In this document: one piece after another, positions 5,738 through 61,400 of the stretch | How the letters are laid out: every line of letters starts with the position of its first letter | How positions within the stretch are numbered: position 1 is the stretch's first letter | Origin: Guyparkeria hydrothermalis | Lineage (GTDB): Bacteria > Pseudomonadota > Gammaproteobacteria > Halothiobacillales > Halothiobacillaceae | Reading direction: 5' to 3' | DNA length: 61,400 bases | Assembly (NCBI RefSeq): GCF_023555375.1 | Contig: NZ_JAJSEE010000009.1 | Span: 1-61,400 of the forward strand | Position numbers and translations under genes: made by a program | The notes under the pieces: model-generated | Seen by the model: only the letters and a program-made list of their open reading frames with translations | Told to the model about the DNA's origin: nothing | Database searches by the model: none

Positions 5738-6633
5738 CCAACGCCACCCGTTTCGGCCACGTGGCGATCGTGGGTCGCCCCAACGTGGGCAAGTCCACGC
5801 TGGTCAACCGCCTGGTGGGGCAGAAGGTGTCGATTACCGCGCCCAAGCCGCAGACCACCCGCCATCGTGTCACCGGCATCATCACCGAAGCGCGGGGGCA
5901 GATCGTGCTGATCGATACCCCGGGGCTTCACCAGGGCGGCAAGGATGCGCTCAACCGGCAACTCAACCGCACCGCCCGCAGCGCGCTCGAGGGCGTCGAC
6001 CTGATCCTGTTCATGGTGCAGGCCGGCCAGTTCGGGCCCGAGGACGAGGACGTATTGCGCCTGTTGTCGCAGGTCGAGGCGCCGGTGGTGCTGGTGGTCA
6101 ACAAGGTCGACCTGGTCAACGACAAGACCGACCTGCTGCCGTTTCTCGCCAAGGTGGGCGAAAAGGGCGACTTCGCCGAGATCTACCCGATGAGCGCCCG
6201 GCGTCGCCGCGGCCTGGACGGATTGCTCGACCTGGTGTTCTCCTATCTGCCCGAGGGGCCGATCGGCTACGACGAGGATCAGGTCACCACCGCGCCGGTG
6301 CGCTTCATGGCCGCCGAGATCATCCGCGAGAAGCTGGCCCGCTCACTGCACGACGAGCTGCCGTACCAGACCACGGTGATGATCGAGCGCTTCGAGGAAA
6401 CCGATCGCCTGGTGACCATCGGGGCGGTGATCTACGTGGCCCGTGCCGGGCAGAAGGGGATCGTGATCGGCAATCGCGGCTCTCGCCTGAAGGTCGTCGG
6501 TCAGCAGGCCCGCGAGGCGATCGAGCATTTGCTGGAAAAGCGGGTGATGCTCGATCTCTGGGTCAAGGTCGCCGACGACTGGGCCGACGACGAGCGCTCG
6601 GTCGCCTCGCTCGGTTACCAGCTGCCCGAATGA
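5734..6633 (+). CDS. era: GTPase Era
   Basis: A 299-aa Ras-like GTPase that binds the 3' end of 16S rRNA and assists 30S assembly. Visible motifs are GRPNVGKSTLVN (G1), the switch region KPQTTRHRVTGI, DTPG (G3) and NKVD (G4). The C-terminal KH domain includes IVIGNRGSRLKVVGQQAR. Its ATG overlaps the rnc stop by 4 bp, so the two are co-translated. The length matches E. coli Era (301 aa). Confidence 0.98.
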   Translation: MTNATRFGHVAIVGRPNVGKSTLVNRLVGQKVSITAPKPQTTRHRVTGIITEARGQIVLIDTPGLHQGGKDALNRQLNRTARSALEGVDLILFMVQAGQFGPEDEDVLRLLSQVEAPVVLVVNKVDLVNDKTDLLPFLAKVGEKGDFAEIYPMSARRRRGLDGLLDLVFSYLPEGPIGYDEDQVTTAPVRFMAAEIIREKLARSLHDELPYQTTVMIERFEETDRLVTIGAVIYVARAGQKGIVIGNRGSRLKVVGQQAREAIEHLLEKRVMLDLWVKVADDWADDERSVASLGYQLPE

Positions 6634-6663
6634 CCGGGACGCGCGGTCGGGTGAACTGACGGC

Positions 6664-7386
6664 GTGCGCGGTTTCCTGCTCCATGCCCGGCCGTTCAAGG
6701 AGCACGGGCTGTTGCTCGACTGGCTGACCGATACCCGCGGCTGGGTGCGGATACGCCAGAACGGCGGCCGGCGGGTCAAGAAGCGCGGCAACCAACGCCC
6801 GCCCAGTTTCGTCTGCCTCGAGGTGGAGACGGCCGGGCGCGGCGGCTGGCCGGTGCTGACCGGGGCCGAGCCGGTGGAGGGATTGCGCTTCCTGCATGGT
6901 CAGCCGCTGGCCGCGGCCTTCTACCTGCACGAGTTGATTCTGCGGGCCCTGCGCCCGGAAGAGGCAGTGCCGGGCCTGTTCCTCGACTACTGGAAGAGCC
7001 TGGCCATGCTCGAATCCCCCGTGATGCCGGTGTCCGTGGTCGTGCGGCGGTTCGAGCGTCGCCTGCTGGATCATCTGGGTGCCGGGCTGGACTGGGAACA
7101 CGCCGCTGACGGGCAACCGATCGACGCGGAGGGTCGCTACCGCGTCGGTCTGCAGATCGGCATCGTGCCGGCCGGAGGGACGAATGGCGTGCCGGGGCAC
7201 GTGCTTCGGGCCATTGCACGGGACGAGGTGCTCGCGGACGGCGAGGAGCGCCGCCAGGCCCGCGACCTGATGCAAGGCCTGCTGGCGCCTCACGTGGGTT
7301 CCGCCCCGTTTCTTTCGCGCCAGTTGTGGCCCGGTGCGACCCGGACGGTACGCCCGGGCGATGCAGGCGATTCCCACAGCCCGTAG
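6664..7386 (+). CDS. recO: DNA repair protein RecO
   Basis: A 240-aa RecO that loads RecA on SSB-coated gaps in the RecFOR pathway. The start is GTG 6664, 30 bp after era, giving the usual opening RGFLLHARPFKEHGLLLDWLT of the OB-fold domain (here as RGFLLHARPF plus KEHGLLLDWL). The mid-region YLHELILRALRPEEAVPGLF matches the helical domain. No zinc-finger cysteines are seen, as in the enterobacterial type. The era-recO-pdxJ-acpS order is conserved in enterics. Confidence 0.94.
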   Translation: MRGFLLHARPFKEHGLLLDWLTDTRGWVRIRQNGGRRVKKRGNQRPPSFVCLEVETAGRGGWPVLTGAEPVEGLRFLHGQPLAAAFYLHELILRALRPEEAVPGLFLDYWKSLAMLESPVMPVSVVVRRFERRLLDHLGAGLDWEHAADGQPIDAEGRYRVGLQIGIVPAGGTNGVPGHVLRAIARDEVLADGEERRQARDLMQGLLAPHVGSAPFLSRQLWPGATRTVRPGDAGDSHSP

Positions 7387-52800: not shown

Positions 52801-53434
52801 CGGGCGGATGGCGTACGAGGTCGTCGAGCACCGCACGCCAGAGTGCCGGTTGCCACCGGGAATCGGCCGGAACGTCAGGGGCCTCGCCGAGCGGGCCGGG
52901 CAGGGCGAGTTCCTCGTTCGCCCAGCGTTCGAGCCAGTCGGCGCGATAGACCTGGTACTGGTCGAACTGGTCGGACAGGCGGGCGGCGAGCTGGTAGGCC
53001 CTGTGTTCGTCATCGACGATGTAATGCGCCAGGGGTTCGAAGACCGGATCGGCGCGGATCGCCGGGTCTCGCAGCAGCCGGAGCAGGCGCCAGGTCAGTC
53101 GCGCCTTGTCCAGCGGGGCCTCGGGGGGCACGTTCTGGCGTCCCAGCACGGCCCGGTAGCACTGCCACTGCAGGCGGGCCGGGAGCAGCAGGTCCATGGC
53201 CGTGGCGATGCCCAGCCCGCCCCGGCCATCCTCGTGTTGCGAGCGGCCAAGGGCGAGGCGCAGCCACTGGGCCATGCCGTTGCTCTGCACGAGGATGCGC
53301 TCGTCCTCCAGCGGCCCGAGCGGCGCTCGACGCAGCCACTCCACCAGCAGATCGCGCAGGCCCTCGAGGCGATTGCCCTGCAACACGATAAAGCCGGGCG
53401 TGATGGGGGCGTGGGCGTCCGTGGAGTCAGTCAA
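49799..53434 (-). CDS. recC: Exodeoxyribonuclease V subunit gamma (RecC), probable TTG start
   Basis: About 1211 aa if it begins at TTG 53434 (LTDSTDAHAPITPGFIVLQG); no in-frame ATG or GTG lies nearby, and the frame continues upstream through non-family sequence. The inactive helicase domain opens ILVQSNGMAQWLRLALGRS, and the RecC-typical FGVSALPPQVLEVLGAISRW and FATLMPMRAIPFRHVYLLGM follow. RecC recognises Chi. It heads recC-recB-recD; E. coli has ptrA between recC and recB, which is absent here. Confidence 0.93.
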   Translation of the reverse strand: MTDSTDAHAPITPGFIVLQGNRLEGLRDLLVEWLRRAPLGPLEDERILVQSNGMAQWLRLALGRSQHEDGRGGLGIATAMDLLLPARLQWQCYRAVLGRQNVPPEAPLDKARLTWRLLRLLRDPAIRADPVFEPLAHYIVDDEHRAYQLAARLSDQFDQYQVYRADWLERWANEELALPGPLGEAPDVPADSRWQPALWRAVLDDLVRHPPETEDGTAPADFAGRALVHRAFLDRAAQATERPPDLPRRIVVFGVSALPPQVLEVLGAISRWTQVIFCLQNPCRHYWGDIVEDRHLFRHAYRRISARKVDASLADHDLHQHAHPLLASWGKQGRDLVRLVDAFDQAPERARHSDPLNIDLFTEPTTDHLLGQIQADLLDLRPVSEMEAQGRRLDAADESLRFTIAHSPLREVEILQDQLLAAFDADPGLRPRDVIVMVPDMTDYAAAISAVFGRLDRRDPRYLPFAISDRPERDTHPMLRALESLLHLPEARLTASEVLDLLEVDALRARFGIADSEVATLRHWIDAAGIRWGLDGDHRPEFGLPAGIEQNTWHFGLDRLLYGYLAGADDDWQGIVPVGGMEGMSAAVIGPLHHLIDTIGRWRHRLGECRSPGGWATRFEELVEAFFDPDAIPPGEDDQANPLAARESAVNLRDRVLEAITGWLEDCRSAAFDQPIGIETARSAWLDRLDEHRLNQRFLVGAVNFATLMPMRAIPFRHVYLLGMSDEAYPRRQPAADFDLMAGRYRPGDRSRREDDRYLFLEALLSARDRFWISWVGRDIRDNHERPASVLVNQLRDHIDRGWSLTDSPDETAASDSLTTEHPLQPFSRAYFGPERPELSSYATEWQQVHAGPNVTHTATSAQTEDEMDAPIPTLGDLAQLLKQPWRVYLGRHLGVAPRTDIRLPEDDEPFALDPLGESQLSAQLLELVRARLAREPVQSLSGERLEAMLPEWIEAAFDRLAGTGQLPLAPFDEALRRDHADPLARQLTTWAAFQARYPDLLPAVDIDARLTPDAGNDQDTVLSGQIDDIRVGEDQAVRLRLLPGALHKGKNLKWHRLVGEWPTHLAAQLSGRPVTTYLISESDAQRDSLLERPVAMEPVDPTVARDLLTALVGWWHQARRQPLPAEARTQIAWLTARDDLKRRSGARAAFDHAAQYDADLRRLWPEFAALEAHADFEAVANALYRPLLSGTRGEHRKAPATEGMASEGEA

Positions 53435-53728
53435 GACGTCGTGTCTTCCCGGTGGTCGCAAATGGAGGTCCGCCGGGAAGTGTATGGGAAGCGGGCATGC
53501 GGTGAAAACGCGACCGGAGGTGTCGTTGGCGGGATGGCCTGGCGCCAGGGTGGTCAAAAAATGCGCAAACTGTGAAAAGAGGCATATAGTCAGGGTGTTA
53601 GGGAACGGCTTTTTGGCGTCCCGGTCAGGGGGCGCCACGTGAGCCGGGCCGGTCAGGCCACCGCCTGACCGGTAGGGCCAGACCAAGCAGGGACCGATGT
53701 ATGGATATGCCCTGGGGACGTCGCTGCC
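53435..53728. other. 294-bp gap between divergent recC and the sigma-54 activator
   Basis: No gene is seen. AT-rich part 53548-53590 includes TATAGT (53585-53590), a possible -10 for the activator gene, with no clear -35. A minus-strand TTGACC at 53552-53557 could belong to recC. The gap also carries the palindrome described separately. Confidence 0.5.
53649..53672. promoter_or_regulatory. 10-bp-arm palindrome upstream of the activator gene
   Basis: Perfect arms CCGGTCAGGC (53649-53658) and GCCTGACCGG (53663-53672) with loop CACC. It lies 56 bp upstream of the activator ATG. It could be an operator, an mRNA leader hairpin or a terminator-like stem (no T-run follows). Confidence 0.4.
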
Positions 53729-55096
53729 ATGAGTAGCGAGATGTGCATGTTTCGGCGATTGCCGATGCTGAGCCTGCGCGGGCCGGAGGCGGTCGAGGAG
53801 GTTCGCCGCATCGCCGAGCCGTTCTTCTGGGAAATCGTGGGCGTCGACGACCCGGACCGGTTATCCCGCCAGGTCAAGCGAGACCAGGTGCGGGTGGCAC
53901 TGATCGACCTGCGCGGGGCCATGCAGTCGGCAATGAGCTGGCTACCTGCCTTCTGTCACCAGTTTCCCAGTCTGCAACTGGTCGCCATCATCGAAAAGCC
54001 GCAGGCCGACAATCCCGCCCACGCCAGCTTCCTGCACGCCTACTTCTTCGATTTCTGCTTTGCCCCGATCGAGCCCACCCGGCTGACGTTCTCGATCGGT
54101 CACGCCTGGACCATGGCCCGGGTGGCCGATCTGCACGTTGCCAACGAGTCCGCCTGTGGTCTGGGCGACGGCGCCCACGAGATGGTGGGCAGGAGCGAGG
54201 CCATGCAGGCGGTCCGGCGCCAGGTGCACCGGTATGCCGGCAATCACCTGCCGGTGCTGATCACCGGGCCCACCGGCACCGGCAAGGAACTGGCCGCACG
54301 CTCGATCCATCATCAGTCCGATCGAACCGACAAGCCCTTCGTTGCGGTCAACTGCGGGACATTGAGCCCTAACCTCATCCAGTCGGAGTTGTTCGGCCAC
54401 GAAAAGGGCGCGTTCACCGGGGCGAGCAAGCGCCGCATTGGCTGGGTGGAGCAGGCCCAGGGCGGGACCCTGTTCCTCGACGAGATCGGCGATCTGCCAC
54501 TGGACGTGCAGGTCAACCTGCTGCGATTCCTGCAACAGGGCGAGATCCAGCGTGTTGGCGGGGACGCCACGATCGCGGTCGATGCCCGCATCATTGCCGC
54601 CACCCACGTCGATCTCAATCGCGCCGTGCTCGCGGGCACGTTCCGCGAGGATCTGCTGTTCCGCCTCGACGTGCTGCCCCTGGAGATGCCGCCGCTGGCC
54701 GAGCGGGGTGCCGATGTGCTCGAGCTTGCCGAGCACTACCTGGCCCGTTTTTGCGACGAGCTGGGAGTAAAGCGAAAGCGTCTGACCCCGGCGACCGAGG
54801 CGGCACTGCGTACCTATGCCTGGCCGGGCAACATCCGCGAACTCATGAACCGGCTGCGCCGCGGCATCGTGCTGGCCGACGGCAACATGGTCTCGCTGCC
54901 GGAGATCAGGCCGCACCACGACGACGACAGCAATTTCCCCACCCTGGCCCGCGCCCGGGAACTGGCCGAACGACGGGTGATCGCCGAGGCAATCGCCCGC
55001 GCGGGCAACAACGTCACCGAGGCCGCGCGCCTGCTCGACGTCTCGCGCTGCACCCTGCACCGACTGATCCGCAAGCACGACCTCTCGATCGACTGA
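53729..55096 (+). CDS. Sigma-54 dependent activator with receiver-like N-terminus (VpsR-like)
   Basis: 455 aa. N-terminal receiver-like domain (about 8-130) with Asp60 (VALIDLRGA) at the end of a strand, where a phospho-acceptor would sit; other receiver residues are weak. AAA+ domain (about 158-390): Walker A ITGPTGTGKELAARSIH, sigma-54 contact loop GAFTGA in HEKGAFTGASKRR, Walker B GGTLFLDEIGDLPLD, and arginine finger region. C-terminal Fis-type HTH NNVTEAARLLDVSRCTLHRL. The layout recalls VpsR of Vibrio, a c-di-GMP-binding activator. It is 347 bp upstream of a sigma-54 promoter, so it likely controls the Fap-like operon. Confidence 0.9.
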   Translation: MSSEMCMFRRLPMLSLRGPEAVEEVRRIAEPFFWEIVGVDDPDRLSRQVKRDQVRVALIDLRGAMQSAMSWLPAFCHQFPSLQLVAIIEKPQADNPAHASFLHAYFFDFCFAPIEPTRLTFSIGHAWTMARVADLHVANESACGLGDGAHEMVGRSEAMQAVRRQVHRYAGNHLPVLITGPTGTGKELAARSIHHQSDRTDKPFVAVNCGTLSPNLIQSELFGHEKGAFTGASKRRIGWVEQAQGGTLFLDEIGDLPLDVQVNLLRFLQQGEIQRVGGDATIAVDARIIAATHVDLNRAVLAGTFREDLLFRLDVLPLEMPPLAERGADVLELAEHYLARFCDELGVKRKRLTPATEAALRTYAWPGNIRELMNRLRRGIVLADGNMVSLPEIRPHHDDDSNFPTLARARELAERRVIAEAIARAGNNVTEAARLLDVSRCTLHRLIRKHDLSID

Positions 55097-55443
55097 CCCG
55101 GCGTTGCCACGTCGAGGGCGCCAGGTCCACCTTCACCGGTTCCCGTCCCGTCATTTCCGCTCGGCTCACGGTCGGGGCCGAGTCGTTTCCAACACGCGAC
55201 ACGCATTAACGCGTCACACCGGGCACCCAACGCCAACGGCGTCAGTGCACGCGCCCATGCGCCAGAATGGATCAACGGCCATTGGCGCTGTATCAGGATT
55301 GCGACGGTTCGACCGGGCCGACACCACGCCTGGATGCGACTCGCGCGGCGCCCCGCATTGCCGGCTGTATCACGCCTGCATCACTCGGCACCGGATCACG
55401 GGGGCTTATTTCGTAAGCCGCTGATTTTACGGCACTCAAAATC
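55097..55443. other. 347-bp regulatory gap upstream of the fap-like sigma-54 promoter
   Basis: No gene is seen. Three palindromes stand out: ACGCC-AAC-GGCGT at 55230-55242, an imperfect pair GCGCCAGAATGG / CCATTGGCGC at 55259-55288, and GGCTTA-TTTCG-TAAGCC at 55403-55419. The first two lie about 160-215 bp upstream of the -24 element, the usual range for activator binding sites of sigma-54 promoters. Assignment to the activator is inference. Confidence 0.45.
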
Positions 55444-55460
55444 TTGGCCCCGGACTTGCT
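55444..55460 (+). promoter_or_regulatory. Sigma-54 (-24/-12) promoter of the fap-like operon
   Basis: TTGGCCCCGGACTTGCT: the -24 GG and -12 GC are separated by the required 10 bp, and TTGGC and TTGCT match the consensus ends. The ATG of the first gene is 53 bp downstream. An activator gene with a GAFTGA loop lies directly upstream. Confidence 0.8.
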
Positions 55461-55512
55461 CCAGTGGGTGGCGTGGGAGCACGACGCTCCCCACCACTTC
55501 GGGAGCCAGGTC

Positions 55513-56121
55513 ATGAACGACGTGTTCGGCAAACAGGATTTCATCTCGATCGCCGGGGACAGGATTCGGGTAACCCCAACCCGATCCGCACCACGGATGA
55601 CCTCCGTGCCTTCGTCGGTTAACGAGTCCCGCCCGAATCCCGCGTTTACGGCCTCCCTCACGCTGACCCTGACCATCACCGCCACGCTGGCGGCCTCGCT
55701 GTGGTCGATCGATGCGTTTGCCGCCGGCTCAAGGGCCGCGGTCGAGGCCAGGCCGGGCGAGATCGTGCTCCAGCGTGCCGTCCCGACCCGCCATGCCGCC
55801 CGTGCCCAGCCCCCGGGGCGGGCCTTGCTGATCGATCCGAGTCCCAGGTCGGAAATGGAACAGGGCCTGTCTCACCTGGAAATATCCCCGGGCGGTTACG
55901 GGCAGGTGGCCGCGGGCGCAGGTAACGGCCCGTCGCACGCCGGCGGCATGGGCGGCTCCATCACCACGATCACCCAACAACTGGGCGGGTCCACGAACGG
56001 ACGCCACTCGGCACCCTCGGTAGCCGGCGGGGCGATCGGCTCGGCCACCGGGTCGATTGGCTCGACCGTGACCGGAGCGCTGTCCGGCGCCGGCCTGCTT
56101 GGACAGGGAGGGACACGGTGA
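55513..56121 (+). CDS. Secreted Gly/Ser-rich protein in fapA position
   Basis: About 202 aa from ATG 55513 (GGGAG upstream); ATG 55597 would give a shorter n-region before the hydrophobic segment LTLTLTITATLAASLWS and a likely cleavage near AFA. The mature part is low in complexity: PGGYGQVAAGAGNGPSHAGG, then Gly/Ser/Thr-rich to the C-terminus. It has no recognised domain. By position it matches FapA, which keeps subunits from early assembly in Pseudomonas, but I see no clear sequence similarity. The stop overlaps the next start (TGATG). Confidence 0.75.
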   Translation: MNDVFGKQDFISIAGDRIRVTPTRSAPRMTSVPSSVNESRPNPAFTASLTLTLTITATLAASLWSIDAFAAGSRAAVEARPGEIVLQRAVPTRHAARAQPPGRALLIDPSPRSEMEQGLSHLEISPGGYGQVAAGAGNGPSHAGGMGGSITTITQQLGGSTNGRHSAPSVAGGAIGSATGSIGSTVTGALSGAGLLGQGGTR

Positions 56122-56804
56122 TGGCCAGCCGCAGCAAGCATTCGCCCGATTTCACGCACCTGATCCGGTTTGCGCTGGTGGGGCTCGGGCTGTTCGCCCT
56201 GGCAATGACCGCCCAGATGATCGTTGCCGGCGACGCCCGCGCCGAGGCCTCCGTGCCCGGCGAATACGACTGGATGCTCGCCGTGCTCAACGACAACCAC
56301 ATCGGCGAGCACTTCGCCCAGGGGGCGACCGGCAACGTGTCCGTCAATACGGCCGCCGGCGCGGCAAATCTCCAGACCAACCAGCGCGCGTTGAACGGGA
56401 CGATCGATGCGACTCAACGCATCGACAACCCAGGCCAGGCACGCCCTGCATGGATGGAGACGAACACGCGCATCGACGGGCAGGCATTCAGTCGTGGACA
56501 GGGCGTGCTGGGAGTGAACCAGGTGGCCGGCGACGGCAACGCCCAGATCAATTCAATGGCCCTTGCCCCCGCAGGCAAGGGATTCAAGGAGATTCGCACG
56601 CTCGAACCGGTGAACCCGGTTGGGGCGTCGGATTCGGCCGCCCGGGACGACGGGCAGTCGGGGGAGGTCTCTTCGGGACGGTATCGCGCGGTTGTCACCG
56701 ACACCGCCTTTAGCGGATTCGGAGGGGTTCTCCAAATCAATCAGGTGTCGGGAAGCCGAAACGTGACGGCAAATCACTTCTCGATGTCCGGCCACCGACC
56801 CTGA
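56121..56804 (+). CDS. fapB: FapB-like minor amyloid subunit, three degenerate repeats
   Basis: 227 aa from ATG 56121. Signal region FALVGLGLFALAMTAQMIVA ending ARA. Three motif copies of the form F..G.G.(V).(V/I)N..AG..N.Q.N: ATGNVSVNTAAGAANLQTN, GVLGVNQVAGDGNAQINSM, and GVLQINQVSGSRNVTANHF. The spacing and pattern match the repeats of the downstream protein, so both are likely amyloid-forming. No C-terminal CxxC is present, unlike the next gene. A FapB-type nucleator role is inferred from order and repeats. Confidence 0.7.
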   Translation: MASRSKHSPDFTHLIRFALVGLGLFALAMTAQMIVAGDARAEASVPGEYDWMLAVLNDNHIGEHFAQGATGNVSVNTAAGAANLQTNQRALNGTIDATQRIDNPGQARPAWMETNTRIDGQAFSRGQGVLGVNQVAGDGNAQINSMALAPAGKGFKEIRTLEPVNPVGASDSAARDDGQSGEVSSGRYRAVVTDTAFSGFGGVLQINQVSGSRNVTANHFSMSGHRP

Positions 56805-56843
56805 ACTCATGATCGAAGAAACCCCAACAAGAAGGTAGATGCC

Positions 56844-58115
56844 ATGAAAACGCAACTCAAGATGACCCTGATCGCCTCGGCGGTCGCCGCGCTGGTCTCT
56901 GGCCCGGTAATGGCCTCCGAGTCCAACGGTGAGCATGAGGGCGGCCACCACAACATCCACATGAAGGTGAAGATCGATGTCGACAAGAACATCGATGTCG
57001 ACAAGACCGTGGACGTCGAAAAGAACCTCACCCTCAACAAGACCCGTAACGAGATCGACCACGTCGATCGTGAGTTGCGTGACATCGTGATCAACGCCTC
57101 GGCGGGTGCCTCGGCACACGATCGCCAGTTCATTCACGCCAACGACGTGCGCAACAAGAAGCTGACCAACAACGCCAGCATCGGTGACAACGTCGGTAAC
57201 GGCGCCTCGGGCAACATCGGCATGAACGTCGCCGCCGGTGACACCAACGTGCAGGACAACGCCGCCGCGCTGGCCGCCGTTGACGCCGGTTTCGTGTTCG
57301 GTGAGTCCTACGCCAGTGTCGACGTTGACCAGACGAACCTGGCCAACACCACCCGTAACAGCGGCGTGATGAACAACGCCAGCATCGGCCAAAGCGCGTT
57401 CGCGAACGCCTCGGGCAATATCGGCGTCAACGTCGCCGCCGGCACTGGCAACGGTCAGAAGAACACCATGGCGGCCTCGGTCTCCACGGCACGTGTAGCC
57501 AACGCCACCCTGAGCAGCAACCAGGAGTCGATCGGTAACAGCATTCGCAACGAAGGCCGTACCGAGAAGTACAGCGACACCACCCAGGTGCAGCTGGCCG
57601 GCTGGAGCATGGGTGGCTACATGGGTGGCGGCGTCGGTGGCTACTCCGGCACCACCAGCGGCACCATCGACGGTGAAATGGACCAGATCAACAATGTCTA
57701 CCCAGACATCTGGACTGGTTCGCAGCACACCGGCGGTTCCGCCGACGGTCACTTCGACCTCGACAACGGGGACGACGGTACCAACGGCACCCAAGGTGGT
57801 CTTGACCTCAACGACGACGGCGGCGCGCTGGCCTTCGGCACCCACGAGATGACCTACGAGGGCGAGGAGTCTGGTGGGCTGGGCTTCGTCGAAGGCGGCA
57901 AGGTCCTGCTTGGAAGCGTCATGAGCGGCGAAGTGGCCACCACGCGCTACGTGGTCGTCAACGCCAAGAACGACGCCTCCCTGCTGGGTAACGCGTTTGC
58001 CAACGCCTCCGGCAACATCGGCGTGAACGTCGCCTCGGGCACCGGCAACCTGCAGAGCAACGCACTCTCCATGGCCGTGGCCTGCAACACCTGCGCTGGT
58101 GGAACCGGCGAATAA
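56844..58115 (+). CDS. fapC: FapC-like major functional-amyloid subunit
   Basis: 423 aa with a signal peptide cleaved after VMA (residue 24). A charged region (35-80) with KIDVDKNIDVDKTVDVEKN-type repeats precedes three clear repeats: residues 109-144, 177-212 and 376-411. Their shared core is NASGNIGVNVAAGxGNxQxN. The first two are joined by a short linker, the third by a Gly/Asp-rich linker of about 160 residues. The C-terminus has the only two cysteines, Cys414 and Cys417, in a CNTC motif. Repeat pattern and CxxC match FapC of Pseudomonas. SD AAGAAGG precedes the start. Confidence 0.82.
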   Translation: MKTQLKMTLIASAVAALVSGPVMASESNGEHEGGHHNIHMKVKIDVDKNIDVDKTVDVEKNLTLNKTRNEIDHVDRELRDIVINASAGASAHDRQFIHANDVRNKKLTNNASIGDNVGNGASGNIGMNVAAGDTNVQDNAAALAAVDAGFVFGESYASVDVDQTNLANTTRNSGVMNNASIGQSAFANASGNIGVNVAAGTGNGQKNTMAASVSTARVANATLSSNQESIGNSIRNEGRTEKYSDTTQVQLAGWSMGGYMGGGVGGYSGTTSGTIDGEMDQINNVYPDIWTGSQHTGGSADGHFDLDNGDDGTNGTQGGLDLNDDGGALAFGTHEMTYEGEESGGLGFVEGGKVLLGSVMSGEVATTRYVVVNAKNDASLLGNAFANASGNIGVNVASGTGNLQSNALSMAVACNTCAGGTGE

Positions 58116-58134
58116 CCCGATCACTTGATCGGTC

Positions 58135-58158
58135 GACGGGGCGCGCAAGCGCCTCGTC
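58135..58158 (+). terminator. Terminator-like hairpin between fapC-like and fapD-like genes
   Basis: GACGGGGCGC (58135-58144) pairs with GCGCCTCGTC (58149-58158), one mismatch, loop GCAA, followed by TTT. A second small palindrome CCGATCA-CT-TGATCGG lies at 58117-58132. A weak terminator or mRNA-stabilising hairpin would leave more subunit mRNA than export mRNA. Confidence 0.6.
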
Positions 58159-58218
58159 TTTCCAGGCGACCACCCTCGATCGGTGTCGCCCGGAAAGACG
58201 ATTGACCCGAATCCATTC

Positions 58219-58998
58219 ATGGCCACTCCACCGCGAGATATCACCGTGCAGGCACCCTCCCTCCGACACAGCAGCGTCATCTTCGCTCGCGCGCTTTGCG
58301 CGGCGGGGTGGGCCTTGTTGGTCTCGGGGTGCCTCGCGGCCATTGCCGCTTTGCCGGCCTCGGCGGCCGACGTGCGGTTTGCCGGTGTTCTTCCCCACGG
58401 GCAGATGGTGGAGAAGCCCGTGGAAAGCCTGCTCGAGCGGCGTTATCGCAACGTCGTGCGTCAGCAGTTCGATTTCTCCTGCGGCGCGGCGGCGCTCGCG
58501 ACGCTGCTCAAGCACGCCTATGGCCTGAACCTCGACGAGGCGACGGTGCTGGCCGGGATGTGGGGGGTTTCCGACCCCGAGCAGGTGCGTACCCGCGGTT
58601 TTTCGCTGCTGGAGATGAAGCACTACCTCGAGCGGCTGGGCTATCGCGGTCGCGGTTACGAAATCGACCTGTCGCGTCTGGGTCGGATCAACGTGCCGAC
58701 GATCGTGTTGATGGACGTCAATGGCTACCAGCACTTCGTCGTCCTCAAGACGGCCGGCGACGGGTACGTGCACGTGGCCGATCCGGCGCTCGGCAACAAG
58801 CGTTACACCACCGAGGCATTCATCGAGGCCTGGCCCTCACGGACGGTGTTCGCGGTGATCGGTCCCGGATTCGATCGCCAGACGGTGCTGCTCGAACGCA
58901 CCGACATTCCCAGCAGCGGCGACCTGCATCGACGCTCGGGGCAGGTGCCCACGGCCGACCTGCTCGATTTCGGTTTTCAGCATGCCGACCTGTTCTGA
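58219..58998 (+). CDS. fapD: FapD-like C39-type cysteine protease
   Basis: 259 aa from ATG 58219 (GTG 58183 is an alternative). A secretion signal with VSGC, which resembles a lipobox, then LAAIAALPASA. The C39 core has QQFDFSCGAAALATLL (Cys88), GYQHFVVLKTAG (His172) and VADPALG (Asp188): Cys-His-Asp triad with oxyanion Gln. In Pseudomonas FapD is a periplasmic C39-like protease needed for fibril export. The C-terminus extends past the protease core with a Ser/Arg-rich tail ending GFQHADLF. No ATP-binding transporter domains are fused, unlike bacteriocin exporters. Confidence 0.85.
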   Translation: MATPPRDITVQAPSLRHSSVIFARALCAAGWALLVSGCLAAIAALPASAADVRFAGVLPHGQMVEKPVESLLERRYRNVVRQQFDFSCGAAALATLLKHAYGLNLDEATVLAGMWGVSDPEQVRTRGFSLLEMKHYLERLGYRGRGYEIDLSRLGRINVPTIVLMDVNGYQHFVVLKTAGDGYVHVADPALGNKRYTTEAFIEAWPSRTVFAVIGPGFDRQTVLLERTDIPSSGDLHRRSGQVPTADLLDFGFQHADLF

Positions 58999-59025
58999 GG
59001 CCGGTGGCTTTACGAGGGTACTCCC

Positions 59026-59853
59026 ATGAAACGCAAGCACTGCATCCGATCCATGCACTACTACAACCAGCCCGCGCCCAACCGTGAACGGCCCGCGCCG
59101 GGTCTGCCCACCAAGGCGCTCCTGGTCGGTGGTATCGCGGTCGGGCTGGCCTGCGCCGGCTTGCTGATCAGTGGGTCGGTGCTGGCGGCCAACCCCGCCA
59201 TCGTGGCGCTTACCGACCCGGAACTTGCCGAGATGCGAGGCCGCTTCCTCGCCGCGGACAACCGCGTGATGTATTTCGGCGTCGAGATGATCACGCAGTG
59301 GCAGACCACGGGCGGCACGATGGCCGCCGGCCTGAGCGTCGGTATCGACCGGGCCGGTCGGACACCCTCCGTGACCTTTGCCCCGACCGTGTCGATCCAG
59401 GGTGATCCCGGGATCAACACCTCGGGGTCCCATGTCGTCCAGGGCAAGGCCACGGATCGCACCCGCGGGGTACGCCAGCAGATCCAGGTCGCCGGCAATG
59501 ACAACCGGGCGGCTAACCAGTTCGACGTGCGGATCGAGCCGCATCGGCGGGGTGCCACCGGCTCGGAAGGCGGCTACAACGTAGAGGTGCGACAGGGCGG
59601 GGCGGTGGTTGCCGCGGGGCTTTCCAACGGCGGACGGCAGGCCGGGGTAAGCATGCAGCTGGGCAATTCGCGGGTCTTCCAGGGATTCCAGGCCGGCAAC
59701 GCCGCCCAGGTGATCCAGTTGGCCGGCGATCACCAGGTGGTCAACAACCAGCTGCGTCTGGTGGTGGGCATCGACCCGAGCCGGATGAGCAGTCGAGAGC
59801 AATTGCAGCGCCAGGTCGGCCAATCGTTGGCCACGCTGCGAGGCGGCATCTGA
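59026..59853 (+). CDS. Secreted protein in fapE position
   Basis: 275 aa. A basic n-region of 30 residues, then ALLVGGIAVGLACAGLLISG and a cleavage site near VLA (residue 54). The start of the mature part, LTDPELAEMRGRFLAADNRV, has a D-E-L..(R)G-type sequence. The rest is beta-rich with repeats of the form VAGNDNRAANQF, GNSRVFQGFQAGNAAQVI, and AGDHQVVNNQ, again Gly/Asn/Gln-rich like the amyloid repeats. I infer a FapE-type outer-membrane or fibril-associated factor by position. It starts 27 bp after the protease gene with SD GAGGG. Confidence 0.75.
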   Translation: MKRKHCIRSMHYYNQPAPNRERPAPGLPTKALLVGGIAVGLACAGLLISGSVLAANPAIVALTDPELAEMRGRFLAADNRVMYFGVEMITQWQTTGGTMAAGLSVGIDRAGRTPSVTFAPTVSIQGDPGINTSGSHVVQGKATDRTRGVRQQIQVAGNDNRAANQFDVRIEPHRRGATGSEGGYNVEVRQGGAVVAAGLSNGGRQAGVSMQLGNSRVFQGFQAGNAAQVIQLAGDHQVVNNQLRLVVGIDPSRMSSREQLQRQVGQSLATLRGGI

Positions 59854-59935
59854 AAACCGGTCGTTCACGTCCGGGACACCGCGTGAGCAGGACAACGAAT
59901 GGCGAGCGAGGGGACAATCCCCAAGGAGTCGGGCC

Positions 59936-61264
59936 ATGGATTTACCGGAAAGGGAACGGGCAGGGGGCGTCAGCCGCCTGCCGATTGGGTTGTCGACACT
60001 GACGGTCTGCCTGTCGCTGGGACTGGCGCCGATGGCCTGGGCGGCCAACGAGGCCGACAACGTCGAACAATTGCGGGCGGAGCTGGACGAACTCAAGCAG
60101 CGTTACGTCAACGAGGTGCGGCGATTGCGCGAAATTGACGCGCGCTTGATGGCCGTCCAGACGCGACTGTCCGAGGCGGGGGTGGAGCCCGAAGGGGATC
60201 TCGAACCGCGTCCGTCATTGGGGGCGCAGGCCGATACCGGCGAGGCCGCCGGCAGCGCCCCCACCGCCGAGGACAAGCGCCAGGCCACGCGCCGCAGCGT
60301 CGATGATTTCCTCCAGCAGGAACACGTCGCGTTCGACCGGCCGCTGGTACTCGAGGCGGGGTTCGAGTACAGCCGCTACGATCGCACGCAATTGACCTTG
60401 AACGGCTTTCTCGCTCTGGACGCGATCTTTCTCGGCAACATCGCCGTCGACAACGTCGCCTCGGACACCTTCAAGTACACCCTGGCGGCCCGCTATGGTC
60501 TGACGCCCCGCTGGAACATCGGCGTCTCCGCGCCGTTCATCCAGCGCTACACGACCTACCAGAAGGGTGGAGCCGGTGGATCGGCGGCCGCCTTCGCCGA
60601 GGTGGACCAGACCAGCGATCTCGCCATCGGCGACACCACCGTCAACATCAGTTACCGGTTACTGCCGGAGACGGCCAGTCGGCCCGACGTGGTCCTGACC
60701 GGCAGCGTGATCGCGCCCACCGGGCGCGAACCCTACGGGATCGACTGGCGCGTGATCGAGACCGGCGAGGATGCCGACGGCAACTCGTTTGTCCGCTTTG
60801 CCGTCCCCGAGGAGCAGGCGACCGGCAACGGGCTCTGGGGGGTGGGCGCCTCGGTGTCCGCGGTCAAGACCCTCGACCCGGCGCTGCTGTTCGCCAACTT
60901 CGGCTACACGCACTACATCTCGCGCAGCTTCGACGATCTCAACAACGATCCGGATACCGTCAATCCCGGCGAGGTAAGCCTGGGCGACAGCTGGAGTTGG
61001 GGACTGGGCCTGGCGTTCGCGTTGAACGATCGCGCCAGTCTGTCGATGTCGTACTCCCAGCAGATCAACGGCAAGGCCCGCACCAAGTACGACGGCGAGG
61101 AGTGGGTCGACCTGATCGGCAGCGATGCCAACTCCGCGATGTTCAATCTCGGGCTGACCTACGCGCTGGGCAAGAAGACCACCCTGGTCACCACGCTTGG
61201 CGTGGGCCTGACGCCCGATGCCCCGGATTTCACCCTCGGCATCCGTATCCCGTACGCGCTCTGA
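59936..61264 (+). CDS. fapF: FapF-like outer-membrane amyloid exporter
   Basis: 442 aa, with signal peptide to about residue 36. A coiled coil (41-82) runs through NVEQLRAELDELKQRYVNEV, a Pro/Ala linker follows, then a plug-like helix SVDDFLQQEHVAFDRP near 120-135, and a beta-barrel of about 12 strands to the C-terminus. Pseudomonas FapF is a trimeric channel with exactly this coiled-coil, plug and 12-strand barrel plan and about 430 residues. Barrel strands alternate, for example WSWGLGLAFALNDRASLSMS. It closes the operon. Confidence 0.82.
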   Translation: MDLPERERAGGVSRLPIGLSTLTVCLSLGLAPMAWAANEADNVEQLRAELDELKQRYVNEVRRLREIDARLMAVQTRLSEAGVEPEGDLEPRPSLGAQADTGEAAGSAPTAEDKRQATRRSVDDFLQQEHVAFDRPLVLEAGFEYSRYDRTQLTLNGFLALDAIFLGNIAVDNVASDTFKYTLAARYGLTPRWNIGVSAPFIQRYTTYQKGGAGGSAAAFAEVDQTSDLAIGDTTVNISYRLLPETASRPDVVLTGSVIAPTGREPYGIDWRVIETGEDADGNSFVRFAVPEEQATGNGLWGVGASVSAVKTLDPALLFANFGYTHYISRSFDDLNNDPDTVNPGEVSLGDSWSWGLGLAFALNDRASLSMSYSQQINGKARTKYDGEEWVDLIGSDANSAMFNLGLTYALGKKTTLVTTLGVGLTPDAPDFTLGIRIPYAL

Positions 61265-61308
61265 CCGCCCGGCAACGGGCGGCGTCGACCGATCCTCCTG
61301 CGGTCTTT
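61265..61308 (+). terminator. Hairpins after the fap-like operon
   Basis: CCGCCCG (61265-61271) and CGGGCGG (61276-61282) form a perfect stem with a GCAA loop; a second stem GACCG (61287-61291)/CGGTC (61301-61305) is followed by TTT. Together they likely terminate the operon. The final 90 bp of the window are AT-richer and probably upstream sequence of the next gene. Confidence 0.65.
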
Positions 61309-61400
61309 CCTCCGCCGCCCGAGTCAGGCCGGGAGCGGGGGATTTTTTAATGGAATGGCCTGCTCCCACCCTATTACGCTGTTTGGAGGAACAACCGAAC

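Follow-up and report, generated by a model that had tools for sequence, protein, structure and literature searches.

A predicted sigma-54 promoter with paired upstream palindromes precedes the functional-amyloid operon of Guyparkeria hydrothermalis

How the genes for a functional amyloid are switched on is the question that this locus of Guyparkeria hydrothermalis raises. The window, which is the whole stretch of 61,400 nt analysed here (contig NZ_JAJSEE010000009.1), belongs to a genome of 2.43 Mb with a completeness of 99.9%. The six NCBIfam models FapA to FapF match in order between 55513 and 61264 (Table 1); only FapC passes its curated cut-off, and FapA is the weakest match. By these matches, the region is a fapABCDEF functional-amyloid operon, for which amyloid fibres and export through FapF are predicted. 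Upstream of it, the 17-mer TTGGCCCCGGACTTGCT, a pair of palindromes and a site resembling that of the integration host factor (IHF) have, as judged from the DNA, the layout of a sigma-54 enhancer promoter, in which activator sites lie further upstream and an IHF site often stands in between. We consider it highly likely that this 17-mer is the sigma-54 promoter of fapABCDEF, activated by the adjacent BrfA-like enhancer-binding protein (EBP) through the two palindromes and IHF. The RpoN-type switch before the Fap operon is very probably real.

Table 1. Genes of the operon and putative regulatory features in the window.
Feature	Position	Strand	Description
EBP gene	53729..55096	+	455 aa; VpsR-type N-terminal domain, AAA+ with GAFTGA, Fis-type HTH
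Distal palindrome TGTATCAGGATTGCGACG (candidate UAS2)	55289..55306		155 bp before the 17-mer's first base
Proximal palindrome TGTATCACGCCTGCATCA (candidate UAS1)	55366..55383		78 bp upstream of the 17-mer
IHF-like site TAAGCCGCTGATT	55414..55426	+	8/9 to YAANNNNTTGATW; 30 bp upstream of the 17-mer
Predicted -24/-12 (sigma-54) promoter TTGGCCCCGGACTTGCT	55444..55460	+	start predicted at about 55471
fapA	55513..56121	+	NF058617, 28.7 bits, E 1.4e-6, below the curated cut-off of 110; operon position
fapB	56118..56804	+	NF058557, 68 bits, cut-off 190
fapC, major amyloid subunit	56844..58115	+	NF058558, 218 bits, above the cut-off of 195
fapD, C39 peptidase	58183..58998	+	NF058616, 237 bits, cut-off 330; PF03412, 1.4e-19
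fapE	59026..59853	+	NF058559, 71 bits, cut-off 250
fapF, outer-membrane amyloid exporter	59936..61264	+	NF058560, 394 bits, cut-off 700

The sigma-54 consensus is YTGGCACR-N4-TTGCW, in which GG and GC stand 10 nt apart in a TGGCAC-N5-TTGC context. In the 17-mer, GG occupies 55446–55447 and GC occupies 55458–55459 with ten nucleotides between them, and 52 nt separate the site from the ATG of fapA at 55513. The initial annotation had named a strong sigma-54 promoter here, with -24 GG and -12 GC at exact spacing; its sequence, coordinates and spacing were right, and the word strong was overstated, as the site has TGGCC in place of TGGCA and agrees with the consensus at 11 of the 13 specified positions. 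Across the whole window, GG-N10-GC sites scoring at least 11/13 occur twice on the plus strand and four times on the minus strand, this one included, and 1.6 per strand are expected under a first-order Markov model. For the 416-bp gap between the EBP gene and fapA, about 0.014 such sites are expected on the right strand. The match alone is thus good, not outstanding, and suggestive only. The plain -24/-12 consensus with up to two mismatches has 127 forward and 125 reverse matches in the whole genome, whereas its reversed control has more (205 and 207), and with two mismatches it has 334 matches in the window versus a shuffle mean of 254. Because the plain motif is so common at two mismatches, it cannot carry the promoter claim by itself; the site becomes convincing as a promoter because of the comparison with other fap loci. 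The sigma factor itself is encoded once in the genome (one Sigma54_DBD match, 1.1e-68).

To make this comparison, we used 99 loci, namely the window and its family, 79 named loci, and 11 of 13 further stretches (L137 and L141 were left out). An 88-locus set leaves out L142, which lies on the same contig as L061, four loci with no usable fapA–C match (L131, L148, L213 and L214) and six with fewer than 450 bases upstream (L138, L143, L144, L145, L147 and L151). Within the genus, GG-N10-GC is kept in all eight loci compared, the window included, with scores from 9 to 12; the lowest score belongs to L061. Of 94 regions that precede the first recognisable fap gene, 70 have a site of at least 11, versus 2 of 94 on the opposite strand; the 94 include five contig-edge stubs unable to score. 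A threshold of 10 gives 83 regions versus 26 on the opposite strand, so that a score of 10 alone is weak. When longer stretches were used where fapA was unrecognised, the site reached at least 11 in 75 of 88 loci and at least 10 in 87, comprising 8/9 loci of the window's family (L061 is the exception) and 79/79 outside it, many of the compared loci being from one order, the Lysobacterales (Stenotrophomonas and relatives). After similar upstream regions were collapsed into 73 representatives, the promoter (at least 10) was retained in 72, a palindrome in 69 and the IHF-like site in 41.

The upstream elements were recognised in an alignment of the EBP–fapA gap from eight same-genus genomes, two of the sequences being cut short at the fapA end. 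Amid otherwise diverged sequence, the -24/-12 site stands out as conserved, as do two blocks resembling palindromes and, between, a block reading TAA...TG.TTT. The window palindromes are imperfect, agreeing at 9/10 positions with the general pattern TGTnnCA-N4-TGnnACA and at 10/12 with a narrower one, and one palindrome of a same-genus locus (L058, genome G002) is perfect, TGTCTCACACATGAGACA. A scan of the window's genome for the strict palindrome TGTNTCANNNNTGANACA with at most one mismatch found no match because both window copies carry two mismatches. Genome-wide, a pattern derived from both window copies matches those two places only (reversed control, 0); given its derivation, this speaks for rarity and is no independent discovery. 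The adjacent EBP appears to be devoted mainly to the fap promoter. In two same-genus genomes, near-perfect sites also lie away from fap, at 228455 and 1852234 of G001 (the latter G001:C1:1852234) and at G007:C6:532405; the last two are near-perfect TGTATC-N6-GATACA palindromes and possible further EBP targets. Such sites speak against a strictly single target.

Across the 88 loci, a palindrome of at least 8/10 at -66 to -89 or -135 to -184 is found in 9/9 loci of the window's family and 75/79 outside it, versus 1.7% of 3950 random placements; the sigma-54 site serving as reference was picked among the four best candidates, partly weighted by palindrome score, and the random control had no such weight. 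The distal palindrome alone reaches this score in 9/9 and 72/79 loci, lying at -143 to -173 in other loci, and the proximal one in 9/9 and 39/79; the proximal palindrome is therefore the weaker outside the family. In total, 84 of 88 loci have a palindrome near -78 and/or -155, with both places occupied in 45 and neither in four (L136, L216, L218 and L220). The earlier, narrower pattern gave a similar separation, with at least 10/12 in 69/88 loci versus 18 of 880 random 350-bp windows. On this evidence, the two palindromes are likely docking sites for the adjacent EBP. A recognition-helix pattern, [VI]SR.[TS]..RL, occurs in 84 of the 89 fap-linked EBPs, which fits a palindrome common to fap loci. 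Regarding autoregulation through the same palindromes, the best match upstream of the EBP gene is only 6/10, so this idea is not supported.

The IHF consensus is YAANNNNTTGATW. An IHF-like site of at least 7/9 near -30 is present in 8/9 loci of the window's family and in 36/79 outside it, versus 0.7% of random placements. When all 65 bp upstream were scanned, a score of 8 or 9 was reached in 33 of 87 loci, compared with about 3 in Markov shuffles of these stretches, and 28 of the 33 fall in the -30 to -26 bin; restricting the scan to -33 to -27 places 28 loci at -30 and one at -29. The genome contains genes for IHF alpha and beta, both matching over the curated cut-offs. A stem-loop at 55403–55419 was considered as a terminator and rejected, as it has a weak tail and its stem, judged by eye, is not kept in the same-genus alignment. 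The IHF-like site fits this conserved stretch better than a terminator would.

The neighbouring gene had been described as encoding a GAFTGA-containing activator, and this description held. The protein matches VpsR (3.2e-7), Sigma54_activat (9.8e-69) and the Fis-type HTH (7e-10) in Pfam, with GAFTGA at residues 227–232 (window 54407–54424) and the Walker A sequence GPTGTGKE from residue 180. Among 89 fap-linked EBPs, GAFTGA is found in 72, GSFTGA in 16 and neither in one. The GSFTGA proteins (L134, L135, L160, L172, L185–L189, L195, L202, L203, L209, L211, L212 and L217) come mainly from the Stenotrophomonas maltophilia group, together with two from Dyella.

Full flanks were available for 73 loci, none of which is from the window's own family and which are not the same set as the 73 collapsed representatives; within the fetched flanks of 71 of them lies an EBP above 150 bits. 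Of the 71 genes, 53 are downstream and opposite, 11 upstream and opposite, 6 upstream on the same strand and 1 downstream on the same strand. From these four arrangements, it follows that the promoter stays put while the EBP gene moves. At L174, the -24/-12 site and the palindromes are present and the EBP is absent from the flanks; the other exception is L220, described below. Seven same-genus loci contain fap together with the EBP gene (the window, L057, L058, L059, L066, L098 and L099), and in each of them the EBP gene lies upstream in the same direction; L061 starts within the EBP gene. In the other genus of the window's family, it is downstream and opposite, in L100 (about 6.7 kb from fapF) and in L101.

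A maximum-likelihood tree places all 32 sampled fap-linked EBPs (of 89) on one side of a branch and 26 other EBPs apart (support 99/96; 98% of 200 bootstrap trees), where every outsider is from the family of the window, whose genome is among the sources, and some rows are long, e.g. L139 and L219. The EBP also follows the operon among genomes. FapF is found in 12 of the 27 genomes of the window's family, and 10 of these 12 have an EBP orthologue (at least 519 bits); none of the 15 genomes without FapF has one, the best match in each being at most 259 bits. One of the two exceptions, G010, is 79% complete and its fap contig starts inside fapC. The other, G009, has a remnant of the locus (L067, G009:C46:162001-178000, 6333–7231). 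In this remnant, EBP residues 1–143 are right beside pieces of FapF, and no other fap gene is present in the 16-kb stretch; to judge by these fragments, activator and operon have decayed together.

A counterpart of this promoter is known from Pseudomonas fluorescens PF07, where the biofilm matrix consists chiefly of Fap amyloid and fap regulation was called little known by the authors (PMC9207406). In that strain, 5' RACE mapped a -24/-12 element before fapA, and fap expression is lower in rpoN and brfA mutants (PMC9207406). Both systems thus have a -24/-12 element before fapA and a Fis-type EBP encoded beside fap. They differ in the position of the regulator gene: brfA of PF07 adjoins fapA–F downstream of fapF in reversed orientation (PMC9207406), whereas the window EBP gene is immediately upstream and co-directional. 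Another Pseudomonas locus, that of sp. G34 (L219), has its EBP gene downstream and reversed as in PF07; the site there scores 11/13 and the distal palindrome 8/10, and its EBP, on a long branch, falls in the same clade as the window EBP. The window EBP is therefore probably of the BrfA type, being fap-linked and in one clade with the L219 EBP, the Pseudomonas member used for the comparison, and the gene at 53729–55096 is a probable BrfA counterpart. The initial annotation had tied the amyloid to RpoN and to the adjacent EBP, and the comparison supports this tie through the site, the linkage, the clade, the co-occurrence with FapF, the palindromes and the IHF-like site, together with the PF07 counterpart.

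Two other regulators resemble the window EBP in part. VpsR of Vibrio cholerae shares the Pfam VpsR N-terminal domain (E 3.2e-7) and the AAA+ domain, with a PDB match to 7v2b. VpsR is not known to have a working GAFTGA motif or to act with sigma-54, and in this it differs from the window EBP, which has GAFTGA. Pseudomonas FleQ and the window EBP are both EBPs with an AAA+ GAFTGA domain linked to biofilm control, as PDB matches also reflect; unlike the system proposed here, FleQ controls genes of the biofilm matrix independently of RpoN (PMC9207406).

The elements, their conservation and spacing, the gene linkage, the EBP clade, and the rpoN and both IHF subunit genes are directly seen, and from them we infer protein binding, RpoN dependence and IHF action. 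In the mechanism that we propose, sigma-54 RNA polymerase would sit at 55444–55460 as a closed complex, and EBP oligomers would bind the two palindromes (TGTATCA-N4-TGnnnCA/G), which start 78 and 155 bp upstream. The DNA would be bent by IHF at the site between the palindromes and the promoter. By ATP hydrolysis, the AAA+ domain would open the closed complex with its GAFTGA loop. By analogy with BrfA, the EBP may be gated by c-di-GMP, so that the amyloid would be made in the sessile state.

Could a promoter of the sigma-70 type, or read-through out of the EBP gene, instead account for most transcription of the operon, with GG-N10-GC arising by chance in a GC-rich genome? On the window's plus strand there is indeed about one site of at least 11 per 30 kb, fap and the EBP gene point the same way in the window's genus, and the sole terminator-like match between them is weak. 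A chance site would, however, hardly recur in front of fap at 87 of the 88 loci, among them those with the EBP gene downstream or opposite, nor would palindromes and an IHF-like site keep fixed distances from it. A search for a sigma-70 consensus upstream of fapA on the plus strand found none, and the scan of 53400–61400 gave a sole match, on the minus strand inside the EBP gene. We therefore regard this explanation as very unlikely. To the same small degree, we credit a sigma-54 promoter whose main activator is another EBP of the genome, the neighbour regulating something else. EBPs can act at a distance, and eight Sigma54_activat matches above 150 bits are present in the genome, the adjacent EBP and seven further strong ones. 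Against this, the fap-linked EBPs that were sampled fall into a single clade and accompany fap in several orientations, their presence or absence tracks fapF within the family, no further genome match exists for the pattern derived from the window palindromes, and the brfA mutant of PF07 loses fap expression (PMC9207406).

The gating of this EBP is a separate matter. FleQ binds its c-di-GMP signal with the motifs KEVVARN after Walker A and LFRS before the AAA+ domain. These motifs are only partly kept in the window EBP, which has KELAARS where FleQ has KEVVARN, and LFRS before the AAA+ domain is not in its translation. The N-terminal domains also vary widely among fap-linked EBPs. These features would suit an EBP with no need of c-di-GMP, one in which the VpsR-type domain senses otherwise or which is constitutive. 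This modification of the preferred explanation is possible but the less probable form of it, because BrfA is reported to be a direct sensor of c-di-GMP and BrfA-type factors to be widespread across Pseudomonas (PMC13101488, citing Guo et al. 2024), and the genome has 44 GGDEF matches. These matches indicate that c-di-GMP signalling is available in the window's genome, and c-di-GMP gating here is extrapolated from BrfA. For a genome of this small size, they also form a dense c-di-GMP network.

The promoter type was already known from PF07; what the present analysis adds is a probable binding-site architecture and its wide conservation. By comparison, control by RpoN and an EBP is extended from one Pseudomonas strain to the fap loci of many Gammaproteobacteria, including Guyparkeria, the genus of the window, and a large number of Lysobacterales. 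The analysis also supplies a short binding pattern, fixed in its spacing, that can be tested. The terms palindrome, footprint, EMSA and IHF are absent from the main texts of PMC9207406 and PMC13101488, and the word 'sigma' is absent from the main text of Dueholm 2013. A search by titles and the starts of abstracts in a mainly open-access collection found no literature on sigma-54 control of fap outside Pseudomonas. On balance, we favour the view that most gammaproteobacterial Fap operons are under one ancient dedicated module, consisting of the EBP, its enhancer sites (TGTnnCA-N4-TGnnACA) some 78 and 155 bp upstream, often an IHF site at -30, and the -24/-12 promoter, in which the cis part is fixed, the EBP gene is mobile and c-di-GMP gating is included.

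Several single loci depart from the common layout. In L152, the order is fapF, a reversed EBP gene and then fapA–E, with fapF detached; a -24/-12 site of 10/13 is still found before fapA. L220 (Polaromonas) has fap without an adjacent EBP, palindromes or a convincing -24/-12 site, so that this locus is probably controlled in another way. L203, on a contig filed under Candidatus Eremiobacteraeota, is a fap locus whose EBP groups with one from a Rhodanobacter (98/93); this is perhaps a misplaced contig or a transfer. The draft contigs of L062, L063, L064, L065 and L147 start inside fapC (L143–L145 are on the same contigs as L063, L064 and L062, respectively); the fapC repeats therefore probably break assemblies and hide the fap promoter. 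Finally, L136, L138 and L141 contain several fapC- or fapB-like stretches in series, apparently expanded arrays of amyloid subunits.
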